This document shows positions 38,792 to 44,895 of a stretch of DNA of 45,207 nucleotides, one piece after another. The stretch's first letter is position 1. Each line of letters begins with the position of its first letter. The position numbers and the translations under genes are program-made. The notes under the pieces are model-generated. The model searched no databases, was not told the origin of the DNA, and worked only from the letters and a program-made list of their open reading frames with translations. Source of the stretch: a virus; the IMG/VR virus record IMGVR_UViG_3300043470_000498, positions 1-45,207 of that record; one strand, given 5' to 3'.

Positions 38792-39057
38792 GCTTTGCCT
38801 TTCTGCTTCCCGCCCGGACCGTCCCGGCGGAATGACTCGTTGCGTTCTTTGGGGATGGCGCGCAGGTTGCTGGCTGCGTTGGTGCCGCCCCGGCTGATGG
38901 GCTTCTTGTGGTCGACGTGCGTGTTGGTCGGCAGGTCGCCGTGCTTCTTCTCGTAGGCGTAGCGCGCCTTCTGGCGGTCGCGCCGGGCCTGCTTGCGGTC
39001 CTCGCTCTCGCGGGCAGCCTCTTTTGCGTAATCCCTCTTGTCTTTAGGCGTCGGCAC
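38788..39057 (-). CDS. Small HNH endonuclease (89 aa)
   Basis: GTG 39057 with AAGGAGG upstream. The product is basic, with the HNH signature THVDHKKPISRGGTNAASNL and IPKERNESF at about 47-77. Small HNH nucleases of this type support terminase function or act as homing-like endonucleases. Here it lies in the early operon, not next to terminase. It overlaps the 3' end of the larger HNH gene by 14 bases. Confidence 0.85.
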   Translation of the reverse strand: MPTPKDKRDYAKEAARESEDRKQARRDRQKARYAYEKKHGDLPTNTHVDHKKPISRGGTNAASNLRAIPKERNESFRRDGPGGKQKGKA

Positions 39058-39490
39058 TTCGAGCCTCCTTGAAGCGGTTGGTTGTTTTCGGGGGGCAAGA
39101 GAGCGCCTGATCCAGCGGCACTCCGTTTTTCAGGCGCCACATAAGGGTGTCGTACCGAATGCCATGCTGCTCAGCTAGCTGGGCTATTGGCGTGCCGTCT
39201 GGGGCGCGGAGCGTCTTGCGCTTGTTACGGGAGTTCTGACTGCGCGTAGCCCACCGACAGTTGTCCGGGGAGTACCCCGCATCGTTGTCTACCCGGTCAA
39301 GCTCGGTGCCGTCGGGCCGGACCCCCATGTCGCCGACGAACTTCTCGAACTGGAGCCAGTCGTCGCACACCGTAATGCCCCGGCCCCCGTACCTCAAGTA
39401 CGCTGGGTCGTTCGGGTTCAGGCACCGCGATTTCATGGCCCTCCAGGTTCTGTAAGTGGGCGTACCGTGCATGCGGTGGGTTTTGGTCAC
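39044..39490 (-). CDS. Free-standing HNH homing-type endonuclease with C-terminal HTH (148 aa)
   Basis: GTG 39490 with GGAG eight bases upstream. The motifs YGGRGITVCDDW (34-45), ELDRVDNDAGY (63-73) and NCRWATRSQN (77-86) define a phage HNH-family endonuclease. Residues 100-125 form an HTH (IAQLAEQHGIRYDTLMWRLK). It is a close relative of the nested endonuclease at 42297-42995 but lacks its zinc-ribbon N-terminus. Such genes often spread as selfish elements. It sits between two small genes without breaking an obvious one. Confidence 0.8.
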   Translation of the reverse strand: MTKTHRMHGTPTYRTWRAMKSRCLNPNDPAYLRYGGRGITVCDDWLQFEKFVGDMGVRPDGTELDRVDNDAGYSPDNCRWATRSQNSRNKRKTLRAPDGTPIAQLAEQHGIRYDTLMWRLKNGVPLDQALSCPPKTTNRFKEARSADA

Positions 39491-39681
39491 CGTTGCTTCT
39501 CCTGCGTAAATCGGCACCAGTCGAACAGGTAGTAGTGGGGCAGGCGGCCGTAGCGCACCCACAGGCGCTGGGCTCGGGCCAGCACGTCGTAGGGCACATC
39601 GGAGATGCCGTAAATGCCGAACCGCTCCCCCTTCGCGGAAGCCGCCATAGCCTGCGAGATGTGCGGGTCAGGGGCGCGCAT
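39487..39681 (-). CDS. Hypothetical protein (64 aa)
   Basis: Start at ATG 39681. The stop TGA overlaps the GTG start of the HNH gene. The product is charged with a compact helical pattern (SDVPYDVLARAQRLWVRYGR, then LPHYYLFDWCRFTQ). There is no signal or membrane segment and no recognised family. It overlaps the DksA-like gene at its 5' end, so it is part of the same tight operon. Confidence 0.6.
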   Translation of the reverse strand: MRAPDPHISQAMAASAKGERFGIYGISDVPYDVLARAQRLWVRYGRLPHYYLFDWCRFTQEKQR

Positions 39682-42039: not shown

Positions 42040-44895
42040 TTATTTAGCCGAGCCGTAGTCTCCCGCGGTGCTTCCCTCACTCCAGACCACGAGTTCCTTC
42101 CACCACCGAGGCGGGGTTCGCATGATCCCCTGCAGGTGCGCGAGCAGCTGTTCGGCTTCGCTGTCCGGGAACAGATAAACCAGCTCGTCGTGAACCCGCA
42201 GTTTGGGGCGGAAGCCCGTGTCCTTGTAGAAGTCCAGGGCGCAGTCGAACACCGAGTCGCGGGCCAGGGCCTGCACGATGTTCTCGCAGTTATGGACTAT
42301 GAACGGGCCTCCGGCTCCGAGGACGACGAACCGCTTGCGCGGGCCGCAGTTGACGATGTCGTAGACGTCCCTACGGGGGCCGCCAGATCCGCTCCGGTTA
42401 GACCGCGACGAAGCCGGTGGTACAGCGTCGAACGGCTCAGCCCCGTGTCCTTTGCCAGAGCGGCCACATCCACCCCGGTGCTGGCGCGGCGGTTCATGCA
42501 GTTGCTTTTCCGAGACGTCCAGTGGCAGTTCTCCCTGCAGTACCCCGCGTTGTTGTCCCTGCGGTCCAGGTCCAGCCCACGCTGATACGAGCCGCCCATA
42601 TCCGCCCAGAATGCGGAGAAGCCCGCGGACCACTCGGGACAGACGGTTATGCCGCGCCCCCCATAGTTCTTCCACGCTGGATGATTGGGCTTCTGGCAGC
42701 GCGCCAGCATGGACCTCCATACCGCGTACGCCGGGTGCCGTGTCATGCCATGTGTTTGCAGTTTCTTGCGCATCAACTCGGCTGTCTTGCACCCGCAATT
42801 GGGGGTTCCGGGGCGCTTCAACTCGCTGACGACTTTCGTCGCTGAGCGAACTACTACGGTCCCGCATGTGCAGCGGAACCTCCACAGCGCGTGGTGCCGA
42901 CTCGCGTCGAGCCCCTCGTACGCCTCCGCTGTCAGGCATCCGTATGTCTGGCCGGTATGGTTTAGGGCTCGCCCCCGCTTGGACCCATCCTTCATCTGTC
43001 AGTACCTCGTGGTCAGGTGTCATCAGCACGCCGTCAACTTGTACGCAGGCTTTCGTACCCTTAAAGATAAGGCCGTCGTGGCGAACAAACTCGACGCCGT
43101 CGTGCAACAGGTCCGATGGTAACACGTTAGATAGCTGCTTCCAGCCGGAGTCTGTGAGCACCAAGGCATCGCCTTCTACGCAGGCTTTAGGTCCGGTGAT
43201 GCGGGCCTTGAAGCGTCCGTGTCCGTAGAACCAGGAGCGCCGTGCGCGTCCATCCGGCCACTCGCCGTCGTCCTCCATGCGGAGATCCGGGTAGCGGATG
43301 AGCCGGCCCGACGGAAGCACGATGCCCTCGCGGCAGGTGTGCGTTAGACCCCACTCGTCGATGTTCGCCTCGGTGCCGCGGCTGATGTCGGTCAGTGCGT
43401 TGGCGCAGTACTTCCAGCCGGAGACGATCTTGTGGTACGTCGAGCGCCAGGCGAACACCACCTCCTCGGAGGTCAGGACGTCCTTCGGGGTGTTCTCATC
43501 CCGGGTCAGCGGCATCTTGATGCCGGCCATGATGCGAGCGATGTTGCAGAACGTGGGCGCCCCGGAGCCGAAGCCTAGACCCAGCTGCGCGACCTTGCCC
43601 ACCTGGCGCTGGTCCTTGCTGACCTCCTCGGGGGCGATGCGGTAGAGAGACTCAGCGGCGAAGCCGCGGTAGAGGTCCGCCTTGTCCGGGCTGGCCCGGT
43701 ACAGCTCCATGCTGGACGCCACCTTCCACAGGAAGTGGTTAACCCGCAGCTCGATGCCGGACTGGTCGGCGACTGCTACGAGGAAACCCTCGGGGGCTCG
43801 CAGGGACTTGCGCAGGGCGTTGGCCGGGCGGCCCGGGTCTTTGGTGTTCACCCGCGGCAGGTTCTGCGGGTTGTATTCCTCGCCGGAGTCGCGCCCCGTT
43901 GTATCCGCACCACAGTATCGGATCGGGATAGGCAGCAGGCCGCCCGTCAGCCGCCCGGCGGTGAGGAACTTCTCGATGCGGGTCTCCAGCAGTGTGGACT
44001 TCACGTCCAGCCTGGCGAGCGCTGCGGCGGCCACCACCGGGTTGTCGTGCTCCTGCAGGGCCAGGAAGGCTTCGTCGGTCTTCGCCAGCGCGGGGACCAG
44101 CTTATCCGGCTTGGTCGGCGAGCGCTTCATGGGCACCTCGACCCCCAGCTTCTCCAGGATGGACGAGAACTTCGGGGCGCTGGCGAGTTCCTGGCGGACC
44201 GCCTCGATCGTGTCTTCGCTGAACTGGATGCCCAGCATGGAGCCGAGATCCAGCAGTGCCTTGTGCTTGCGGGTCCGCTCAACGGACGCAGCGGTCTGGA
44301 GCAGTGCGCGGTCCAGCACGAAGGCCGGCTCAGTCCGCATGCGGATGAGTGCGTCAATCTGCCACAACTCTGCCGGCGTGAAGAACTGGCGCAGGTGCTG
44401 GAACAGGGCGTAGTCCTGCTCGGTGTCTTCACGGTTGTAGACCTCCATGCGGGCCAGCTCGTCCTTCGTGAAGTCGGCCAGGCGCTTGCCTTTGGTCTGC
44501 ATGAGGACGGCGTTGTTCTTCTGGCCGATGCCGAGGTACTCGACGAGTGCCCCCAGGCCCAGACCGGTCACCTTGCCGTAGATGGGCCGGGCCATAGCCA
44601 GCGTGCAGCCCCACATCTTCGGGTTGATCTTCAGGCGGTACGCCGAGACGTAGCAGTCGAAGCCCGAGTTGTTGTGAGCGATCACTAACTTGTTAGACCA
44701 GTCCAGCTTCTTGAAGGTGCGCTCGATCTCCGCGTGCCCGAACAGCACGTCGGTCGGCGCCTTGCCGATCTTGATGGCGCACGAGATCAACTCGAAGCGG
44801 TCGTCCATGACGTACTCCAGGGGAGACATCCTGGACAGGGAGTAGTCGGTGTCCCAGTGGGTTTCGTAGTCGAGGGTGCAGAGCTGAAGGCTCAT
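42040..44895 (-). CDS. Family A DNA polymerase containing an intein (951 aa precursor)
   Basis: 3'-5' exonuclease motif LDYET (Asp9, Glu11) is followed by polymerase motif A ADQSGIELR (Asp377), motif B-like QVGKVAQLGLGFG (431-443) and motif C VHDELVYL (His902, Asp903, Glu904). An intein of 298 residues (572-869) sits between motifs B and C, at GPKA/CENIVQALARD. The spliced polymerase would be 653 residues. ATG 44895 follows AAGGAACC, overlapping the small upstream gene by four bases (ATGA). It replicates phage DNA with the primase-helicase. An operator copy lies about 200 bases inside it. Confidence 0.9.
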   Translation of the reverse strand: MSLQLCTLDYETHWDTDYSLSRMSPLEYVMDDRFELISCAIKIGKAPTDVLFGHAEIERTFKKLDWSNKLVIAHNNSGFDCYVSAYRLKINPKMWGCTLAMARPIYGKVTGLGLGALVEYLGIGQKNNAVLMQTKGKRLADFTKDELARMEVYNREDTEQDYALFQHLRQFFTPAELWQIDALIRMRTEPAFVLDRALLQTAASVERTRKHKALLDLGSMLGIQFSEDTIEAVRQELASAPKFSSILEKLGVEVPMKRSPTKPDKLVPALAKTDEAFLALQEHDNPVVAAAALARLDVKSTLLETRIEKFLTAGRLTGGLLPIPIRYCGADTTGRDSGEEYNPQNLPRVNTKDPGRPANALRKSLRAPEGFLVAVADQSGIELRVNHFLWKVASSMELYRASPDKADLYRGFAAESLYRIAPEEVSKDQRQVGKVAQLGLGFGSGAPTFCNIARIMAGIKMPLTRDENTPKDVLTSEEVVFAWRSTYHKIVSGWKYCANALTDISRGTEANIDEWGLTHTCREGIVLPSGRLIRYPDLRMEDDGEWPDGRARRSWFYGHGRFKARITGPKACVEGDALVLTDSGWKQLSNVLPSDLLHDGVEFVRHDGLIFKGTKACVQVDGVLMTPDHEVLTDEGWVQAGASPKPYRPDIRMPDSGGVRGARRESAPRAVEVPLHMRDRSSSLSDESRQRVEAPRNPQLRVQDSRVDAQETANTWHDTAPGVRGMEVHAGALPEAQSSSVEELWGARHNRLSRVVRGLLRILGGYGRLVSAWAGPGPQGQQRGVLQGELPLDVSEKQLHEPPRQHRGGCGRSGKGHGAEPFDAVPPASSRSNRSGSGGPRRDVYDIVNCGPRKRFVVLGAGGPFIVHNCENIVQALARDSVFDCALDFYKDTGFRPKLRVHDELVYLFPDSEAEQLLAHLQGIMRTPPRWWKELVVWSEGSTAGDYGSAK
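42297..42995 (-). CDS. HNH homing endonuclease nested out of frame in the intein (232 aa)
   Basis: Complete gene inside the intein but in a different frame. ATG 42995 lies just after block B, with CGAGG nine bases upstream. The product has a zinc ribbon (CTC at 42-44, CGC at 67-69), YGGRGITVCPEW (111-122), DLDRRDNNAGY (142-152), NCHWTSRKSN (156-165) and a C-terminal HTH (175-196), as in free-standing HNH endonucleases. The last 25 residues (Ser/Thr-rich) overlap block F/G codons and look non-native. It likely cuts intein-less pol genes to drive homing. It stops 8 bases before the intein ends. Confidence 0.8.
   Translation of the reverse strand: MKDGSKRGRALNHTGQTYGCLTAEAYEGLDASRHHALWRFRCTCGTVVVRSATKVVSELKRPGTPNCGCKTAELMRKKLQTHGMTRHPAYAVWRSMLARCQKPNHPAWKNYGGRGITVCPEWSAGFSAFWADMGGSYQRGLDLDRRDNNAGYCRENCHWTSRKSNCMNRRASTGVDVAALAKDTGLSRSTLYHRLRRGLTGADLAAPVGTSTTSSTAARASGSSSSEPEARS
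43119..43130. promoter_or_regulatory. Operator-like site inside intein (copy J)
   Basis: GTAACACGTTAG, one mismatch. It is read as Asn-Val-Leu (AAC GTG TTA) in the intein N-terminus, about 124 bases upstream of the nested endonuclease start. Confidence 0.55.
44685..44696. promoter_or_regulatory. Operator-like palindrome CTAACTTGTTAG (copy K, intragenic)
   Basis: Perfect arms with TT between, inside the polymerase gene about 200 bases from its start, encoding Ser-Asn-Lys-Leu with a TTA codon. Confidence 0.65.

Follow-up and report, generated by a model that had tools for sequence, protein, structure and literature searches.

A phage DNA polymerase intein that carries an HNH endonuclease gene in a different reading frame

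The DNA analyzed here (the window) is the complete IMG/VR virus record IMGVR_UViG_3300043470_000498, 45,207 bp in length, and our subject is an intein in its gene for a family A DNA polymerase (PolA), inside which a gene for an HNH endonuclease is written in another reading frame. All polymerase, intein, and HNH features of the window described below lie on the minus strand. The polymerase open reading frame (ORF; 42040..44895) runs uninterrupted for 951 amino acids and matches the profiles Pfam DNA_pol_A (4.2e-12) and phrog_17 (5.2e-51). The 298-amino-acid intein (42289..43182) extends from Cys572 of the ORF, its Cys1 (codon 43182-43180), to Asn869, its Asn298 (codon 42291-42289), and is followed by Cys+1 (42288-42286); the junctions read ...ITGPKA^CENIVQALARD and place the insertion point just upstream of polymerase motif C. 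Motifs and alignments delimit block A (CVEGDALVLTDSGW; 43141..43182), block B (GVLMTPDHEVLTDEGW; 42985..43032), block F (RDVYDIVNCGPRKRFVV; 42322..42372), and block G with Cys+1 (GPFIVHN/C; 42286..42309). Between the N- and C-terminal blocks lies a low-complexity linker (residues 85-265; 42388..42930), predicted by AlphaFold to be disordered, which is the HNH gene read in the intein frame.

The HNH ORF encodes 232 amino acids (42297..42995) in the +1 frame relative to the polymerase and lies wholly within the intein; over its 699 nt, the intein frame contains no stop codons and the third frame contains 13. The protein matches phrog_374, annotated as "HNH endonuclease" (4.8e-55), and its AlphaFold model has a mean pLDDT (predicted local distance difference test) of 84. 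We recognized an N-terminal zinc ribbon (CTCG...CGC; 42789..42872), a YGGRGI motif in which Y, G, R, and G are invariant in 26 sequences (42648..42665), a beta-beta-alpha catalytic motif LDLDRRDNNAGYCRENCHW...N (LDRRDN...NCHW...N; 42492..42575), supported by a strand-strand-helix at residues 141-166 of the model, and a C-terminal helix-turn-helix (42402..42470). The ATG (42995) sits in the LTDEGW codons of block B, and a Shine-Dalgarno-like GAGG lies 9 nt before it (43005..43008; duplex -7.2 kcal/mol), the codons of this splicing block doubling as the ribosome site and start of the HNH gene. A sequence-only reading of the window had proposed an intein in an uninterrupted polymerase ORF with a Cys start, TPDH in block B, and HN/C at the end, and its coordinates proved exact, with all motifs in place. 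The same reading had described a complete out-of-frame HNH gene with these motifs, its own ATG, and its own ribosome site, beside an intein frame left open as a low-complexity linker, and both descriptions held. Its limits for the HNH gene, just after block B and at the beginning of block F, held in part: the conserved portion (to about codon 210) does stop at block F, but the ORF runs through that block to end within 8 nt of the intein end, and the ATG lies inside block B.

By its motifs and predicted fold the window element is a real intein, and from these features we infer that it splices. The AlphaFold model has a pLDDT of about 97 at residues 1-80 and 270-299, and block means across the linker are mostly 38-56, with one helical patch near 66. 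The best Foldseek matches in the PDB are intein or intein-like (Hint) structures, led by the gp41-1 and mycobacterial DnaB inteins (probability 1.00, E 1.5e-3 and weaker), the weak E-values being probably due to the linker. Relatives align across all blocks with Cys1, T..H, and N/C invariant (alignments A4 and A9), and all 183 cleanly delimited inteins have Cys at position 1 and [HS]N at the end, followed by Cys.

To find relatives, we scanned IMG/VR and GTDB with HNH and mini-intein profiles and, with phage loci and the window added, obtained 340 sequences; elements were chosen by intein-N and intein-C matches, and openness of the intein frame was not a criterion. In the census, 174 complete inteins combined an open intein frame with an HNH gene in a different frame: 60 of the window lineage (HNH2, +1), 74 of a second lineage (HNH6, +1), and 40 of a third (HNH5, +2). 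Among the about 190 homologues sampled, none had the HNH fused in frame. The census also included about 17 mini-inteins, 3 of which retain an out-of-frame HNH remnant, and 3 split forms in PolA (L009 136-1154, L162 695-1677, and L127 4001-5120), where a stop after block B is followed by the HNH ORF and then a separate intein-C ORF. The insertions were found in PolA at several sites (motif B, next to motif C, and motif A) and in helicases, and the HNH lineage was associated with the insertion site, most HNH5 elements being at PolA motif B. While the core claim of an out-of-frame endonuclease in an intein stood, the impression of a singleton did not: judged from the sequences sampled, inteins with an out-of-frame HNH form a widespread class, which comprises at least three HNH lineages and uses both of the alternative frames. 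Near-identical DNA to the window was not found among phage records.

The closest named relatives in tblastn searches with the HNH protein lie within polymerase genes of APSE phages, Shewanella phage SFCi1, and Caulobacter phages. APSE-1, APSE-7, SFCi1, and RW have an unbroken polymerase ORF with intein blocks around an HNH in the +1 frame, as in the window; the +1 frame is also used in Streptococcus phage Javan113 and Gardnerella phage vB_Gva_AB1, and the +2 frame in Jerseyvirus and EBPR siphovirus 2. Among the named carriers are 163 phage records, most of them from Salmonella Jerseyvirus, whose HNH is in the +2 frame in the genomes read out. Of the records inspected, those of the Salmonella, Streptococcus, and Gardnerella phages give the polymerase only and omit the HNH; Jerseyvirus records carry the label "intein-containing DNA polymerase precursor" and leave the HNH unnamed. 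For APSE-1 P46 (L001 3720-4142; NC_000935.1), the annotated HNH start is probably too far downstream, as the conserved zinc-ribbon part lies upstream of it together with a conserved GTG/ATG start. Three polymerases (L017, L028, and L131) each contain two inteins of this family, with HNHs in different frames (+2 and +1). Candidate further hosts, whose flanks resemble helicase motifs, are genes in L327, L330, L336, and L340 (PDVV^CIDYADN) and in L332, L335, and L339 (GRGTRTAPGKSD^CLILDYG). In the window itself, a second HNH of the same broad family has its own ORF at 39044-39562 (minus strand), with no intein noticed nearby, and shares 44% identity with the nested HNH over 135 residues.

An open frame across a gene of this length calls for comparison with chance, and we resampled synonymous codons of the HNH genes using host codon usage. 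The intein frame was open across the HNH in 152 of 156 nonredundant elements, compared with about 1.1 expected; three of the four closed elements were the split cases. The unused third frame was open in none of the 156. Among 117 free-standing HNH genes of the family, a control from which the window (L005) was left out for this test, the two alternative frames were open in 2 and 1 cases, one of the 2 being a nested element truncated by a contig end (L023).

The two frames also differ in how they vary. In 106 pairs of relatives, host codon position 3 is the most variable one in the exteins and in intein blocks A/B and F/G. Across the HNH, this peak is found instead at host position 1 in +1 elements (0.50 vs. 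0.22 and 0.17 in the window lineage) and at host position 2 in +2 elements (0.51 vs. 0.25 and 0.17), which in both cases is position 3 of the HNH codons. Among 12 Guernseyvirinae/SO-1-type phages, whose inteins are all exactly 897 nt, the ratio of nonsynonymous to synonymous differences (pN/pS) across the HNH core was 0.145 in the HNH frame and 1.085 in the intein frame, both being simple counts that ignore the overlap of the frames. The selection on the HNH frame that the sequence-only reading implied is thus present in these relatives. Identity of the linker among relatives was not above that of the unused frame and was close to that of free-standing HNH genes (a set that here included the window). 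A conserved amino acid function of the linker was therefore rejected, its identity being no higher than in the unused frame and its pN/pS about 1. Codon phase, pN/pS, and linker identity together indicate that the HNH is the selected protein and that selection on the linker goes essentially no further than keeping out stops.

Start codons with a Shine-Dalgarno duplex of -5 kcal/mol or lower were found in 90% of HNH2, 93% of HNH6, and 40% of HNH5 genes, against 14%, 41%, and 9%, respectively, in matched stretches of host genes. In HNH6 the start region, AAAGGAGGTAATCGAGTATG, is written through intein codons with AGGAGG-N7-9-ATG at a fixed place, and that of the helicase members is GGAGGATATTATTTATG (GGAGG-ATG). 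These patterns suggest that the HNH is probably translated separately, from an internal start on the same mRNA. The route may differ in the +2 lineage, where it is less clear and frameshifting or reinitiation is conceivable.

The insertions are exact and their sites patchily occupied. Intein-free homologues exist: motif B of L017 holds a +2 intein that APSE-1 lacks, the two being 87% identical across the joined 300 bp, and SFCi1 and L193 show reciprocal occupancy at two sites at 83-84% identity. The site used in the window appears empty in 426 phage records (joined exteins, at least 80% of the query), all below 60% identity. In a quick, midpoint-rooted HNH tree that included the window among free-standing genes, the +2 HNHs group in a single clade, those of the window-type +1 lineage are interspersed with free-standing phage HNHs, and a third group consists of the gut-type +1 HNHs, a topology that suggests three or more captures. 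In the intein tree, mini-inteins occur at scattered positions (12 changes for 12 rows), in keeping with an origin by repeated HNH loss; this tree is poorly resolved and has too few columns for the deep order of frame gains.

What we observed computationally, namely, the two frames, the splicing residues and fold, selection on the HNH frame, stop avoidance in the intein frame, internal start sites, empty and occupied sites, and recurrence of the layout, is best explained by a mobile intein with a split coding strategy, combining a mini-intein frame with a complete out-of-frame HNH gene; we assign this explanation a probability of about 0.87. One frame would encode the polymerase and a mini-intein, its N- and C-terminal splicing blocks parted by the disordered linker, and the precursor would splice to give active polymerase. 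The other frame, placed between blocks B and F, would provide a complete gene for a homing endonuclease, including a ribosome site, a start, and a stop of its own. The HNH protein would cut intein-free polymerase alleles, and repair would copy the whole intein. Having entered the loop of a mini-intein out of frame, an HNH gene could keep its start and stop while the intein frame was cleared of stops. The out-of-frame position may reflect precisely this, as the HNH's own stop would, in frame, truncate an essential host protein; the same logic would explain the zero in-frame cases and the use of both alternative frames.

Other explanations place the HNH gene differently. It could belong to a group I intron removed as self-splicing RNA, the open polymerase frame being incidental: HNH genes such as those for I-HmuI and I-PfoP3I are common in group I introns of phage polymerases, and Sodalis phage SO-1 (L356; NC_013600.1) is annotated with a "type I self-splicing intron." We rejected the intron, as the window gave no Rfam intron match at E ≤ 1 and 13 related loci gave none at the gathering threshold; SO-1, one of the 13, has no detectable intron but an intein with a +2-frame HNH. 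The host frame open in 152 of 156 elements, the conserved splicing blocks with Cys1 and HN/C, the intein fold, and codon-level selection in the host frame point the same way and make an intron extremely unlikely. Even less credible, to the point of being negligible, is that the HNH was once in frame and was displaced by compensating sequencing indels or by frameshift decay. L074 and L157 (N runs) do look frameshifted and mini-inteins hold remnants, but the same frame recurs in many independent genomes, the HNH frame is under purifying selection, and no in-frame relative was found. The sequence-only reading had taken the layout for a clean insertion, and its recurrence in independently sequenced APSE, Shewanella, Caulobacter, Salmonella, Streptococcus, and Gardnerella phages, together with the identical length of the 12 Guernseyvirinae/SO-1-type inteins, excludes compensating indels. 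An in-frame fusion with some frameshifted copies was also rejected, the sole frame-0 HNH piece (L074) spanning an N-containing assembly break.

Three further alternatives accept the layout and question its working. Programmed frameshifting would make the HNH as a fusion to the N-terminal half of the intein rather than from its own start, and several elements, mainly +2, indeed have the HNH frame open for 130-220 nt upstream into intein-N and, in the +2 class, weaker ribosome sites. Most +1 HNH ORFs in PolA, however, begin only about 25 nt before intein-N coding ends, and the ribosome sites of HNH6 and the helicase members stand at the internal start, leaving frameshifting unlikely. The HNH may, with a similarly small chance, have been domesticated for another role, such as packaging or nicking, and have lost homing at this site. 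HNH proteins do have other roles in phages; against this stand the finding that exact sites are occupied in some genomes and empty in close relatives, the association of lineage with site, and the repeated HNH losses that leave functional-looking mini-inteins. That the element is not spliced, the polymerase instead retaining the linker as a loop that it tolerates, has a proposed precedent in the ShiLan domain, where the HNH insertion is out of frame, the host frame is open, and a splicing domain is absent (PMC11855218). We consider this very improbable given the complete, invariant splicing residues of 183 inteins and the confident intein fold; moreover, the insertions interrupt motif B of the polymerase or adjoin motif C, where a retained loop of 300 amino acids should inactivate an essential enzyme.

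Several points nevertheless count against a mobile intein with an overprinted HNH gene. Pfam does not recognize the window intein, and Pfam and NCBIfam together gave nothing above threshold, although a relative in an SNF2-type helicase (L111) exceeded the threshold for Pfam Hint_2 and PT-HINT and fell just short of the cut-off for Intein_splicing. The Foldseek search of the HNH model against the PDB gave no significant match, and the HNH identity therefore rests on sequence profiles. For the window alone, the open intein frame has a P value of about 0.08-0.10 with host codon usage and 0.01 with its own usage, the test being weak here because the DNA is 64% G+C, and there is no close relative that would allow a within-lineage selection test. 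Ribosome sites are weak in the +2 class (40% of HNH5 starts at the same duplex threshold). Sampling was by similarity to nested members, and other intein families with an in-frame HNH would be missed. Finally, we infer, from computation, splicing, separate translation, site-specific cleavage, homing, and the logic of the out-of-frame position.

The layout combines features of several known systems. As in canonical large inteins, there are Cys1, TxxH, HN/Cys+1, an endonuclease between blocks B and F, and insertion in a replication gene; the endonuclease of canonical inteins is in frame, whereas here it is a separate ORF in another frame and outside the spliced-out protein. Jerseyvirus contrasts both types in one genome: the helicase of vB_SalS-S10 (L357) contains an in-frame intein, LAGLIDADG-type by appearance, and its polymerase intein has the out-of-frame HNH. 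Dassa and colleagues reportedly described, in 2009, split inteins with a free-standing endonuclease gene between the halves. A separately translated endonuclease between intein-N and intein-C coding is common to both arrangements, but there the host gene is broken in two, as in our three split forms (L009, L162, and L127), whereas in the window the 951-amino-acid ORF is continuous and intein and HNH are overprinted. With the group I introns the element shares an HNH targeting a phage polymerase gene, and the HNH protein has a weak sequence-profile match to I-HmuI (1u3e; E 0.049), but introns are removed at the RNA level and interrupt the host frame, and no intron structure is present here.

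The sequence-only reading knew of no described example. Our literature search, too, found no description of an out-of-frame HNH layout in an intein, which is apparently undescribed, but related sightings exist. In GenBank, APSE-1 P45/P46 and Sodalis phage SO-1 gp38/gp39 are elements of the same kind, annotated as overlapping polymerase and HNH coding sequences; the APSE-1 annotation makes no link to an intein and has the HNH short, and that of SO-1 names an intron. The nearest published case is the ShiLan domain or Pacc40 insertion, an out-of-frame HNH in phage DNA methylases (Arsenault, Gosselin, Gogarten 2025; PMC11855218), which lacks the splicing motifs and fold of an intein, is believed to stay in the protein, has no detectable ribosome site reported, and was inferred to be mobile. 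The likeness lies in an out-of-frame HNH gene within a phage gene whose frame stays open; the difference is that the HNH described here is enclosed by a real intein and has evident internal ribosome sites.

More generally, we think it fairly likely that these elements represent a third architecture of mobile inteins beside the in-frame and split forms, in which the homing endonuclease gene is overprinted in another frame and yields a protein of its own. The architecture would comprise at least three HNH lineages in related inteins, in the +1 and +2 frames, in polymerases and helicases, and in phages of many bacterial phyla, and would decay to mini-inteins and be able to resolve into split inteins. 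Inteins are textbook nested parasites, with endonuclease and splicing domain in one polypeptide; here the two selfish functions would share DNA but not protein. As free HNH, overprinted, remnant, mini, and split forms coexist in one family, the origin of inteins, through a free endonuclease gene invading a splicing domain, and that of split inteins become directly testable. The family also offers an unusually clean case of natural overprinting, with one frame under strong protein-level selection, the other selected almost only against stops, and an internal ribosome site written within the codons of a conserved splicing motif. In practical terms, such endonucleases are overlooked by annotation, and intein engineering might draw on these compact splicing domains with their disordered linkers.

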